A stretch of 64,000 nucleotides of DNA from Apilactobacillus kunkeei (GTDB lineage Bacteria > Bacillota > Bacilli > Lactobacillales > Lactobacillaceae), in the NCBI RefSeq assembly GCF_001308195.1, contig NZ_JXDF01000012.1, positions 62,001-126,000 of the forward strand, given 5' to 3'. A program made the translations under genes and the position numbers. Position 1 is the stretch's first letter, and every line of letters starts with the position of its first letter. This document shows, piece after piece, positions 49,014 through 61,124 of the stretch. The notes under the pieces were generated by a model. The model saw nothing but the letters and a program-made list of their open reading frames with translations. It had not been told where the DNA came from and did no database searches.

Positions 49014-50402
49014 TTAGAATTTAGCGCTACCTGGTTCACGTGGGAATGGGATAACATCTCTGATGTTTTCCATACCAGTAACGTACATAACTAAACGTTC
49101 GAAACCAATACCGAAACCGGAATGCTTGATTTCACCGTACTTACGTAGGTCTTCGTACCAGTCGTATTCTTCTGGGTTTAAGTCAAATTCTTTGATCTTG
49201 TCGTTTAAGACATCGTAACGTTCTTCACGTTCACTACCACCGACGATTTCACCAATTCCTGGTACTAAACAGTCAGCAGCGGCAACAGTCTTACCATCGT
49301 CGTTATCACGCATGTAGAATGCCTTGATATCTCTTGGGTAATCAGTTAAGAAAGTAGGGCGTTTGTAGACATCTTCACACAAGTATCTTTCGTGTTCTGA
49401 TTGTAAATCAATTCCCCATTCAACTGGAACCTTGAATTCTACATCTGCATCTTGAAGTAACTTAACAGCGTCAGTGTAAGTAACACGGGCGAAGTCTTCG
49501 CTAGCAGTCTTTTGTAGTTTTTCAATTAGGCCTGGTTTAACGTTTTCATCTAAGAATTCTAGTTCATCCTTAGCATAATCTAAAACGTAGTTGATAACGT
49601 ATTTTAGTAAACCTTCAGCAACATCCATCATACCTGGTAGGCGAGTGTATGCCATATCTGGTTCAATCATCCAGAATTCAGAAGCATGACGAGGAGTGTG
49701 TGAATTTTCAGCTCTGAAAGTAGGACCGAAAGTATACACATTCTTGAATGCCATAGTGAATGCTTCTTCTGGAAGTTGACCACTAACAGTTAGGTTAGTT
49801 TCAGTCTTGAAGAAGTCCTTTGAGTTGTCTACGTGACCTTGGTCATCTTTTGGAAGGTTGTCCATGTCCATAGTTGTAACTCTGAACATTTCACCTGCAC
49901 CTTCAGTATCACTACTTGTGATGATTGGGGTGTTAACGTAAACGAAGTCATTGTGTTGTAGGTATTCGTGAACTGCAAATGCAGCTAGTGAACGAATTCT
50001 AAATACTGAGTAGAAAGTATTAGTACGTGGACGCAAGTGAGCGATAGTACGTAGGAATTCGTAAGAAGTCTTCTTCTTTTGTAGAGGGTAGTCAGAGTCT
50101 GAACGACCAACTAGTTCTACCTTTTCTCCGTGCACTTCAAAAGGTTGAGGGGCATCTGGAGTCTTCACAAAGGCACCTTCAACAGTGATTGTTGAAGCGA
50201 TTGGAAGCTTGCTGATTTGTTCAAAGTTTTCGTTACTCTTTTTAACGATAATTTGAGCACTCTTGAAGCAAGAACCATCGTTTAATTCGATAAAACTGAT
50301 GTTTTTTGAACCACGAATGGTCTTAATTGAACCTTCAAGAGAAACTGTTGTGTTATCTTCTAGATCTTTAGTGTATAGATCCTTAACACTAAGTTGTGTC
50401 AT
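49014..50402 (-). CDS. asnS: Asparagine-tRNA ligase
   Basis: AsnS charges tRNA-Asn. The 462-residue class IIb synthetase has an N-terminal OB-fold anticodon domain (about residues 15-115), motif 2 [26 protein letters not shown] ([11 protein letters not shown], about 215) and motif 3 [15 protein letters not shown] near the C terminus, ending [10 protein letters not shown]. The frame opens at 50489 inside the T-box terminator; the correct start is ATG 50402, giving [10 protein letters not shown]. It is controlled by the T-box leader upstream. Confidence 0.97.
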
Positions 50403-50442
50403 GTGATTCACGCCTTTCCGTAAACTATAAATAGCGGTAAAT

Positions 50443-50665
50443 AAAAAACTTCCGCCCCAAAAATTAGGACGAAAGTTCCGCGGTACCACCTAAAGTGCCT
50501 ATAAATAGGCCACTCAATCAAATAACGCTTTGATGTGCGTTCGTCTCTACTAAAGATTCAAAACGAAAACAAATAGGTGTTATTCATTGATGAAAGTATT
50601 ATTAAGCTCTCACTATCCTTAACTCGCTGATAAGATTCATCAACTACTCATCCGTATTTATAGTT
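50443..50665 (-). ncRNA. T-box riboswitch, Asn-specific
   Basis: On the minus strand the leader has the AGCGAG...AGAGCT stem I signature, a closing TTGATGAA/TTCATCAA helix, the candidate specifier AAC (Asn) at 50579-50581 inside GAATAACACC, the conserved T-box AGGTGGTACCGCGG near 50478-50491 and a terminator (AACTTTCGTCC with GGGGCGGAAGTT, then T6). Uncharged tRNA-Asn should stabilise the antiterminator and switch on asnS. Confidence 0.93.
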
Positions 50666-50829
50666 CTATCATATTAACTATTTTTCACATTTAAATATTA
50701 CCACTATTTTGACATTAATTACAATATAAAAGTAGGGCAAAGACAAAAAAGCGTATTGATTGCATTAGATATGTACATATTGGATAATGGTTTCATTAAA
50801 TAACTTATTTTATGTAAGGGGAACGTAAA

Positions 50830-59783: not shown

Positions 59784-60854
59784 TTACCCCCGAGTTTGTT
59801 CGAATTTAGTTAGGACATCAATTAGTTTTTCAACACCTTCAACAGGCATTGCGTTGTATAGACTGGCACGAAGTCCACCGATGCTTCTGTGACCCTTTAG
59901 ACTAATTAGGTCGTGTTCGGCTGCGAAGTCGACGAATTGTGCATCTAGGTCATCGTCATTGGTAGTGAAGACGATGTTGGTGTATGAGCGTTCATCTTTT
60001 TTGACGTTGTTATGGAATAGGCTTGATTGATCAAGATAGTCATATAGCATGCTGCTCTTTTGAATATCGCGTTTTTCCATTTCGGCAATTCCGCCGTTGT
60101 CTAATAACCATTGAGTGGTTAGTTTGGCAGCGTAAATAGGGAAGACCGGTGGAGTGTTAAACATTGAGTTCTTCTTGGCATAGGCTTCGTAGTTAAGAAT
60201 GGTTGGGATATGTTTGGCTGGATCAATTAGGTCATCTCTTACGATAACGATTGTTAGGCCAGCTGGAGCCAAGTTCTTTTGCGCACCCGCAAAGATAAGG
60301 CCAAAGTCGTTTACATCATATGATTCAGCCATGAAGTTGGAAGACATATCACCAACTAATGGGATGTCTTTGACATTTGGTAAATGATTGGGATGGTATG
60401 TAGAGCCTTCAATCGTGTTGTTGATGGTTACATGCAAGTAATCATAAAGATTCTCGTCAAAGTTATCGCTTGGATATGGAAGTTGTCCATCGTCTTTGAT
60501 GATATCGATTCCGTATCCCAGTTGTTCTGCTTCTTGATAGGCCTTCTTATTCCAATGACCACTATCTAGAAAGGCAATCTTTTCTCTGTGGTTAGCTAAG
60601 TTCAACGGAACAGCAGCAAACTGACCGGTCCCACCACCTTGGCAGAATAGAATATGGTAGTTATCAGGAACATGCATTAGGTCCTTGATGTTTTGCTTAG
60701 CGTCATTTAATACATTTTCAAACAGGGTGCTGCGGTGTGAAATCTCCAAAATACTCATGCCACTATCGTTAAACGATGGCATCTCACGTTGAATCTGATC
60801 AATAACTGGTTTCGGCATTACTGCTGGACCAGCTGAAAAATTATATACAGTCAC
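59784..60854 (-). CDS. serC: Phosphoserine aminotransferase
   Basis: SerC transaminates 3-phosphohydroxypyruvate with glutamate to O-phosphoserine. The 356-residue protein begins (GTG)TVYNFSAGPAVMPKPV, has CQGGGTGQFAAVPLN (about 76), the PLP lysine in AGAQKNLAPAG (about 192) and HRSIGGLRASLYNAMP near the C terminus. TTG 60869 is in frame, but GGGAG lies 8 nt before GTG 60854. It is the first gene of serC-serA and is preceded by a leader-peptide attenuator. No serB homologue of the HAD type lies in the window. Confidence 0.95.
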   Translation of the reverse strand: MTVYNFSAGPAVMPKPVIDQIQREMPSFNDSGMSILEISHRSTLFENVLNDAKQNIKDLMHVPDNYHILFCQGGGTGQFAAVPLNLANHREKIAFLDSGHWNKKAYQEAEQLGYGIDIIKDDGQLPYPSDNFDENLYDYLHVTINNTIEGSTYHPNHLPNVKDIPLVGDMSSNFMAESYDVNDFGLIFAGAQKNLAPAGLTIVIVRDDLIDPAKHIPTILNYEAYAKKNSMFNTPPVFPIYAAKLTTQWLLDNGGIAEMEKRDIQKSSMLYDYLDQSSLFHNNVKKDERSYTNIVFTTNDDDLDAQFVDFAAEHDLISLKGHRSIGGLRASLYNAMPVEGVEKLIDVLTKFEQTRG

Positions 60855-60886: not shown

Positions 60887-60919
60887 TAAAAAAGCCCCAC
60901 AGAGACAGTTCTGTGGGGC
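60887..60919 (-). terminator. Attenuator terminator before serC
   Basis: On the minus strand GCCCCACAG and CTGTGGGGC form a perfect 9-bp stem with an 8-nt loop, then TTTTTT. It lies inside the serC leader, 33 nt before the GTG start, so read-through is required for serCA expression. Confidence 0.9.
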
Positions 60920-60954
60920 CACTAGTTCAAGTGTATTGTCTTTTAGACCCCACA
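60912..60954 (-). promoter_or_regulatory. Antiterminator helix in the serC leader
   Basis: TGTGGGG (60948-60954) can pair with CCCCACA (60912-60918), the 5' arm of the terminator, extended by a T-G and a C-G pair. Forming it prevents the terminator. Confidence 0.7.
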
Positions 60955-60963
60955 AAATGTTAA

Positions 60964-61022
60964 CCATCTATGCAGGGCACAAGTTTCGTATAAATAGGCC
61001 TACATAAATGGATGTGTAGACC
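60964..61022 (-). promoter_or_regulatory. Competing hairpins over the Ser codons of the leader peptide
   Basis: Helix A pairs GGTCTACA (61015-61022, covering the Trp-Ser-Thr codons) with TGTAGGCC (60997-61004, containing the TAG stop). Helix B pairs CCATTTATG (61003-61011) with CATAGATGG (60964-60972), 9 bp. They are mutually exclusive, and ribosome position would choose between them. Confidence 0.65.
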
Positions 61023-61065
61023 AGGAAGAGACAATTAAATTATTAATATTTGTATTTCTTAACAT
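61000..61065 (-). CDS. Leader peptide of the serCA operon, 21 residues
   Basis: A 21-codon reading frame on the minus strand starts at ATG 61063-61065, 8 nt after a perfect GGAGGAGG (61074-61081), and ends at TAG 61000-61002. Codons 11-17 read Ile-Val-Ser-Ser-Trp-Ser-Thr, so three of 21 residues are serine, clustered just upstream of alternative RNA hairpins and a terminator. The placement is that of an attenuation leader peptide like those of trp or his operons. Ribosome stalling at the Ser codons during serine shortage would favour read-through into serC-serA. Found by reading; too short for routine annotation. Confidence 0.75.
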   Translation of the reverse strand: MLRNTNINNLIVSSWSTHPFM

Positions 61066-61095
61066 TTTAATTACCTCCTCCTTTAATTTAACCAA

Positions 61096-61124
61096 ATTTT
61101 AACACTCATATAATAATTTGCAAA
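61096..61124 (-). promoter_or_regulatory. serC operon promoter
   Basis: On the minus strand TTTGCA (61119-61124), a 17-bp spacer and TAAAAT (61096-61101), about 30 nt before the leader peptide ATG. A TATAAT on the plus strand at 61134-61139 serves the divergent phosphatase gene. Confidence 0.65.

Follow-up and report, generated by a model that had tools for sequence, protein, structure and literature searches.

A Probable Serine-Keyed Leader Peptide Attenuator Upstream of serC-serA in Apilactobacillus kunkeei and Other Lactobacillaceae

Leader Peptide Attenuation and the Control of Serine Synthesis

The his operon attenuator of Escherichia coli and Salmonella combines a leader peptide containing regulatory codons with a chain of alternating RNA segments and an intrinsic terminator. 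Attenuators usually depend on which helix forms first. The Leu/phe leader (Rfam family RF01743) is an attenuator, and the serC RNA motif of the Alphaproteobacteria sits upstream of serC. RF01743 has been described from Lactococcus lactis (PMC2864571), and a leucine-rich attenuator peptide is reported at ilv-leu of Staphylococcus aureus (PMC5794164). His leader peptides are reported for Bacilli, Peptostreptococcaceae, and Erysipelotrichaceae, some of them replacing T-boxes, and the his genes of the Lactobacillales are reported to carry T-boxes (PMC2965389, PMC9413887). A Ser T-box is reported to control serA in Paenibacillus polymyxa (PMC8002221). Sun et al. reported in 2013 that the attenuators in Rfam were limited to those for His, Leu, Thr, and Trp (PMC3766115). 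The literature searched, largely open-access, yielded no serine leader peptide or serine attenuator, in keeping with the initial annotation of the locus described here, which knew of none in lactobacilli.

The window, a stretch of 64,000 nucleotides of Apilactobacillus kunkeei DNA, contains a serC-serA leader that is very probably a ribosome-mediated transcription attenuator with the six-segment layout of the his operon, keyed to serine. The initial annotation had proposed an attenuator with a serine leader peptide at this site; its observation is confirmed, and its interpretation is supported and largely right.

Organization of the serC-serA Leader

The stretch from the promoter-like site to the terminator covers 61124-60888 on the minus strand. 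The parts of the locus are as follows.

61096..61124, minus strand: promoter-like site with -35 TTTGCA, a spacer of 17, TGn, and -10 TAAAAT; consensus match only
61074..61081, minus strand: Shine-Dalgarno sequence of the leader open reading frame (ORF), GGAGGAGG, read directly
61000..61065, minus strand: leader ORF MLRNTNINNLIVSSWSTHPFM, ATG at 61065, 21 codons, stop codon TAG at 61002-61000
61018..61029, minus strand: sensor codons TCT TCC TGG TCT, encoding Ser13, Ser14, Trp15, and Ser16
61015..61022, minus strand: segment 1, GGTCTACA
60997..61011, minus strand: segment 2, CCATTTATGTAGGCC, which includes the stop codon; partner of 1 or 3
60964..60978, minus strand: segment 3, GCCCTGCATAGATGG; partner of 2 or 4
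60946..60954, minus strand: segment 4, TGTGGGGTC; partner of 3 or 5
60911..60920, minus strand: segment 5, GGCCCCACAG, the 5' arm of the terminator, from folding, covariation, and the terminator scan
60888..60902, minus strand: segment 6, CTGTGGGGC (60894-60902), with the T6 tail (60888-60893), from covariation and the terminator scan
59784..60854, minus strand: serC, class V aminotransferase (phosphoserine aminotransferase), GTG start at 60854, Pfam PF00266
58621..59778, minus strand: serA, D-2-hydroxyacid dehydrogenase family (phosphoglycerate dehydrogenase), Pfam PF02826 and PF00389

A short ORF with its own start codon and Shine-Dalgarno sequence lies 5' of the first gene, and its peptide ends in SSWSTHPFM. 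An intrinsic terminator is located between this ORF and serC; about 80 nucleotides of structured RNA separate the ORF from the terminator and its T6 tail, and the terminator ends 33 nucleotides upstream of serC. The names serC and serA are those we presume from sequence knowledge, with Pfam giving the families, by which the genes of the operon are serine making. The window SerC is 97% identical to that of A. waqarii, the nearest named record.

Most elements named in the initial annotation can be read from the DNA where it had placed them. These are the strong Shine-Dalgarno sequence at 61081-61074, the 21-codon frame with three clustered Ser codons (13, 14, and 16), the helix over the Ser codons and the stop codon, the antiterminator, and the terminator with T6 followed by serC. 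Of the sigma-A promoter it described, the -35 and -10 hexamers with TGn are present, scoring 9 of 12 against the consensus. The promoter call itself is weak, since the 421-base region holds six promoter-like sites against 1.9 expected and one other site scores 10. In the same scan, terminator-like sites number two, overlapping, against 0.1 expected, with the terminator GGCCCCACAG/CTGTGGGGC at 60920-60894. The leader folds at -74.6 compared to a shuffle mean of -48.55 (z of -5.96), and none of 200 shuffles is as good.

Rfam 15 contains no family that reaches its gathering score over the leader; the best match below threshold is Spot_42, with 28.2 bits against 80. RF01743, whose threshold is 70 bits, scores 17.4 (E of 1.8), which is at chance level. 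A T-box leader of the ordinary kind (RF00230, 118 bits) lies elsewhere in the window, at 50462-50670 on the minus strand, 5' of the ORF 49014-50489, an asparaginyl-tRNA synthetase by eye.

A serine T-box in the serC leader itself would have a parallel in the T-box reported at serA of P. polymyxa (PMC8002221), and the window does contain one T-box, at the other site just named. The covariance model of RF00230 gives no match at the serC leader, however, and no T-box is found among the 14 Rfam matches over the leader at E values up to 5. None reaches the gathering threshold in 20 serC upstream regions either, and the scanned stretch lacks a Ser leader in 18 of these. The initial annotation had noted that a T-box consensus is absent, and no T-box or riboswitch model reaching threshold bears this out; a T-box here is vanishingly unlikely.

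Conservation of the Leader in Lactobacillaceae

Of the 16 genomes of the genus, 7 have serC; in the family, taken as Lactobacillaceae, the gene occurs in 171 of 397 genomes, and the best-scoring 150 of these 171 loci were examined. A leader was counted when at least three Ser codons within six codons, together with a Shine-Dalgarno sequence and a start codon, occurred up to 600 nucleotides upstream of serC. This applies to 107 of the 150 loci; genome G159 adds one just beyond that distance, with the leader MFINRYANLIVSSWSTQTSVSA and a terminator located about 600 nucleotides upstream of serC. Ser-codon leaders are thereby found 5' of serC at 108 of the best 150 of the 171 loci and in 14 of 19 genera, and no such leader at 42 of the same 150. 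All examined loci carry the leader in g1 (7/7), g4 (18/18), g7 (2/2), g12 (8/8), g13 (4/4), g14 (19/19), g20 (1/1), g21 (14/14), g26 (1/1), g32 (2/2), and g38 (20/20). The genera g6 (5/6), g17 (6/8), and g23 (1/9) carry it in part, G159 being counted in this tally, and it occurs at no examined serC locus of g2 (3 loci), g3 (7), g30 (13), g33 (7), and g36 (1). At L289, the locus of G159, about 500 nucleotides of hairpin-rich DNA lie between the Ser attenuator and serC; elsewhere in that genus this DNA is absent or shorter.

The leader and the terminator occur together. A scan for terminators over 170 nucleotides upstream of serC gave both elements at 102 of the 150 loci, neither at 38, the leader only at 5, and the terminator only at 5. 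Three of the leader-only cases lie further upstream and the other two have long-loop terminators missed by the scan, and one of the 38 loci with neither is that of G159, which has both further upstream. Three loci of g2 (L146, L156, and L157) show a terminator 5' of serC and no Ser leader; their ORFs overlap a tRNA gene and were not counted as leaders. The leader starts of L061 and L072 were set by hand.

A riboswitch that senses its ligand directly, with the ORF as an incidental feature, would be in line with the strong conserved structure and the terminator. The reading frame speaks against it. In all 102 distinct leaders, the Ser run can be read in frame from a Shine-Dalgarno sequence and a start codon, a figure that follows from the selection of the leaders; for either other frame the figure is 0 of 102, which does not follow from it. 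In addition, no Rfam family reaches threshold in the window leader or in six Ser leaders, and the leaders of g17 and g7 keep the Ser run while their layout shrinks, by eye, to an apparent four segments. In these shorter Ser attenuators (L133, L134, L142, L143, L145, and L151 of g17; L144 and L155 of g7), segment 2 appears to have the terminator's 5' arm as its direct partner, as in the layout of the trp operon. A riboswitch is therefore highly improbable, and the data favor a translated leader peptide.

Sensor Codons

Clustered Ser codons are retained in the relatives. The six-codon sensors of the 102 distinct leaders contain 381 Ser codons, 3 to 5 per leader; their number is not an unbiased measure, since the search itself required three or more. 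They comprise TCC (190), TCT (94), TCA (74), AGC (12), and AGT (11). TCC thus makes up 190 of 381 sensor codons compared to 58 of 1,036 Ser codons in 38 long ORFs of the window, and TCN makes up 358 of 381 compared to 67% in these ORFs. AGY codons stand mostly first in the Ser run, a place taken in other genera by TCA or by a codon for another amino acid.

A Trp codon interrupts the Ser codons of the window leader, and the leader could accordingly be read as a sensor of tryptophan or of general translation stress instead of serine. Trp occupies this position after the Ser run in 70 of 107 leaders. In the other 37 it is replaced (L 11, K 8, R 8, T 6, P 2, Q 1, and G 1) with the Ser run intact. 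The codon also lies within helix 1:2, where its first pair is G-C in 16, G-U in 3, and A-U in 2 of 24 leaders and unpaired in 3, and the downstream genes make serine. Sensing of tryptophan or of translation stress is very doubtful for these reasons, and serine remains the favored signal.

In the free leader, the Shine-Dalgarno sequence pairs with the Ser-codon stretch, which corrects the picture of the leader without a ribosome given in the initial annotation. The Ser codons might then be conserved mainly as an anti-Shine-Dalgarno gate on leader translation and not as a sensor. In 61 of 102 leaders, the Ser window ranks in the top 5% of Shine-Dalgarno partners within that leader; in 72 of 102, no more than 5% of synonymous recodings equal its pairing with the Shine-Dalgarno sequence. 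The excess of TCC over the window ORFs points in the same direction. Against a gate as the main function, 41 and 30 leaders, respectively, fail these two measures, the Ser run includes AGY and TCA codons, and segments 1 to 6 are left unexplained. This reading is unlikely as a replacement for the sensor, and both uses of the Ser codons may hold together. In serine-starved Bacillus subtilis, UCN and not AGY codons are reported to slow ribosomes (PMC3862929). The preference for TCC has two possible causes, the pairing with the Shine-Dalgarno sequence and the slow decoding of UCN codons.

Two Alternative Structures and Their Covariation

The terminated structure consists of helices 1:2, 3:4, and 5:6 and the antiterminated structure of 2:3 and 4:5, the two being mutually exclusive. 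The single competing helix B of the initial annotation resolves into two competing helices, namely, 2:3, formed by CCATTTATGTAGG with CCTGCATAGATGG (13 bp), and 3:4, formed by GCCCTGCA with TGTGGGGT (8 bp, three G-U). This answers the question of how helix B favors the antiterminator.

A MAFFT alignment of 24 leaders picked for diversity was examined for both structures, each read off one leader, L024. In the terminated structure, 23 of 33 pairs show two-sided change, compared to 14.6 in shuffles (0 of 500 as high) and at most 15 when the structure is slid, and 84.5% of cells are paired (at most 48.6% when slid). The antiterminated structure shows two-sided change in 14 of 22 pairs (shuffles 9.9, with 3 of 500 reaching 14; slid at most 11) and 87.6% of cells paired (slid at most 52.8%). 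Both structures therefore covary in this alignment of serC upstream regions, and the frame and the Ser codons are retained in the relatives; the initial annotation had suggested both checks. It had named loss of the frame or of the Ser codons with the hairpins kept, or a match to a riboswitch or T-box model, as evidence against its proposal; neither was encountered.

A covariance model of the terminated structure only, R1, was built from the 24 leaders and recovers 98 of the 99 six-segment leaders given, including the 24 from which it was made. Ten of the 108 rows, being secondary or on the opposite strand, were removed to give the set of 98 leaders, in which L131 is not represented. The antiterminator helices are not part of R1, and they are paired in 85.5% (2:3) and 91.1% (4:5) of cells in the 98 leaders; sliding them by up to 2 brings these values down to 50.1% and 58.1% or less. 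In this larger set, the antiterminator stands out by cells paired and not by the number of pairs with two-sided change, which gives no separation (11 against 10 slid for 2:3 and 7 against 7 for 4:5). For helix 1:2, the share of paired cells is 94.2%. The number of leaders in which a helix is paired to at least 75% is 97 of 98 for 1:2, 79 for 3:4, 97 for 5:6, 68 for 2:3, and 86 for 4:5.

Folding with and without a Ribosome

Folding with ribosome-masked segments, as proposed in the initial annotation, was carried out in silico. The window transcript ending at segment 4 forms 3:4 when it is free or when a ribosome is at the stop codon, and 2:3 when the A site is occupied by Ser13 or Ser14. A ribosome placed on these Ser codons hides the first hairpin's 5' arm, and the folding moves toward the antiterminator. 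When the A site is at codon 15 or 16, the transcript returns to 3:4, the fold of the stop state.

The shift is also seen in most of the 58 relatives folded. They are those of the 102 leaders in which segment 4 is clear, minus the eight from g17 and g7. A stalled ribosome gives an expected 10.6 pairs in 2:3, compared to 4.5 in the free state and 5.1 when a mock stall is set at an early codon; the stall raises this number by more than 3 in 36 of 58 leaders and lowers it in 2. Compared to a ribosome at the stop codon, the stall leaves segment 4 freer in 30 of 58 leaders and less free in 10, and the group means of g12 (3 leaders) and g21 (4 leaders) go in the wrong direction. A cruder accessibility test of 89 of the 102 leaders, with 13 unusable and six terminators set by hand, gives 33 against 4, a weak signal.

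Some results count against the switch. In the full-length window transcript, the terminator wins at equilibrium in all tested states, including the stall, and in a transcript with segment 5 and without segment 6, helix 4:5 wins in all tested states, including the free one and that with a ribosome at the stop codon. The full-length equilibrium terminators of L005, L007, and L008, three close relatives, are weak when a ribosome is at the stop codon (0.14, 0.00, and 0.06), for which the switch model gives no account. Folding energies alone do not yield a switch, so the order of synthesis, that is, which helix forms first, would have to contribute.

The conserved frame, the covarying structures, and the in silico folding shift support the logic of a trp/his-type attenuator keyed to serine, as put forward in the initial annotation, and suggest the following model. 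With ample Ser-tRNA, the ribosome would reach the stop codon and cover segment 2, so that 3:4 could form; without translation, segment 1 would pair with segment 2, and 3:4 would form as well. In both cases, segment 5 would be left for segment 6, and RNA polymerase would stop before serC. When Ser-tRNA is short, the ribosome would stall at codons 13 and 14 and cover segment 1, allowing 2:3 to pair. Segment 4 would then be free and presumably capture segment 5 before segment 6 is made, and serC-serA would be transcribed. In the cell, serine shortage is thus expected to cause ribosome stalling and read-through into serC-serA. The pairing of uncovered Ser codons with the leader's own Shine-Dalgarno sequence might serve as a latch against reinitiation, keeping out a second ribosome after the first has left.

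Distribution and Sister Leaders

At an E value of 0.01, R1 matches 183 of the 397 family genomes; for the order, the figure is 97 of 395. Most of the weak matches are probably due to chance. Among the family matches listed, those with E below 1e-7 all lie 5' of serC, judged by eye, except L214, which has a candidate leader ORF without a Shine-Dalgarno sequence. The best match in the other families of the order (395 genomes) is L222 (E of 2.6e-6), which shows no such leader by eye; L222 was the one match read there, and sister leaders may also occur in other families. The serC upstream regions of 40 out of 158 serC-bearing genomes, covering six other families, showed no such leader near the gene. 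Six of these 40 have a small Ser-containing ORF 284 to 598 nucleotides off, set aside on position alone. Judged from the genomes compared, the serine attenuator looks confined to the Lactobacillaceae. Three weak matches in the A. kunkeei genome itself (E of 0.001 to 0.24) are ordinary terminators by eye.

Thirty places with weaker family matches were read; L221 proved to be serC and L222 to belong to another family. Nine of the remaining 28 show an ORF led by a Shine-Dalgarno sequence and rich in one kind of amino acid, and the genes behind these ORFs are for the most part amino acid genes. VVVVV (L219) precedes an amino acid permease and LHLFLLII (L216) a gene of the lactate/malate dehydrogenase family, both by Pfam, and IIIIII (L267 and L273) precedes a gene without a Pfam match (tested for L273). 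The aromatic leaders FYYYWYA (L271) and FYYYWFMK (L272) lie 5' of DAHP synthase and shikimate dehydrogenase, respectively, again by Pfam. YYFWY, YYFWF, and YYFGYF lie 5' of PTS_EIIC_2 proteins (L215 by PF13303; L223 and L279 by resemblance). No Rfam match was found over the sister leaders in a scan of ten weak-match loci.

Leader peptide attenuation may be general in Lactobacillaceae, to go by these ORFs. The sister leaders also hint at gene function, since aromatic-rich leaders 5' of PTS_EIIC_2 membrane proteins suggest that these proteins carry aromatic amino acids. A wider proposal, whose chances appear evenly balanced, is that the family possesses unrecognized six-segment attenuators for Ser, Ile, Val, Leu, and aromatic amino acids, with the Ser type best conserved; its Ser codons, preferably UCN, would double as an anti-Shine-Dalgarno latch that allows one ribosome at a time on each transcript.

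Comparison with Known Systems

The his operon attenuator shares with the serC-serA leader the leader peptide with regulatory codons, the alternating segment chain, and the terminator; it senses histidine and belongs to another phylum, whereas the leader described here is keyed to serine and matches no Rfam leader family at threshold. RF01743 comes from the same order and is the only leader-type family among the 14 matches below threshold, spanning 61092-60899, but it senses other amino acids. The ilv-leu leader of S. aureus is likewise a case of leader peptide attenuation in a Firmicute, with leucine as the signal and a different operon as the target. The His leader peptides of Firmicutes are similar in kind and differ in responding to histidine instead of serine. 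The alphaproteobacterial serC RNA motif is also located upstream of serC and gives no match at the window leader. The T-box of P. polymyxa serA also provides serine-responsive antitermination at a gene of serine synthesis, in its case without a leader peptide (PMC8002221).

The leader would offer a codon-level serine sensor for testing the difference between UCN and AGY slowing reported for B. subtilis (PMC3862929). If the model is true, serine would be a new specificity for leader peptide attenuation, in an order whose histidine genes are reported to be T-box controlled (PMC9413887). Leader peptide attenuators in Firmicutes and T-box-run serine synthesis are already known; what appears new is the serine-keyed leader.
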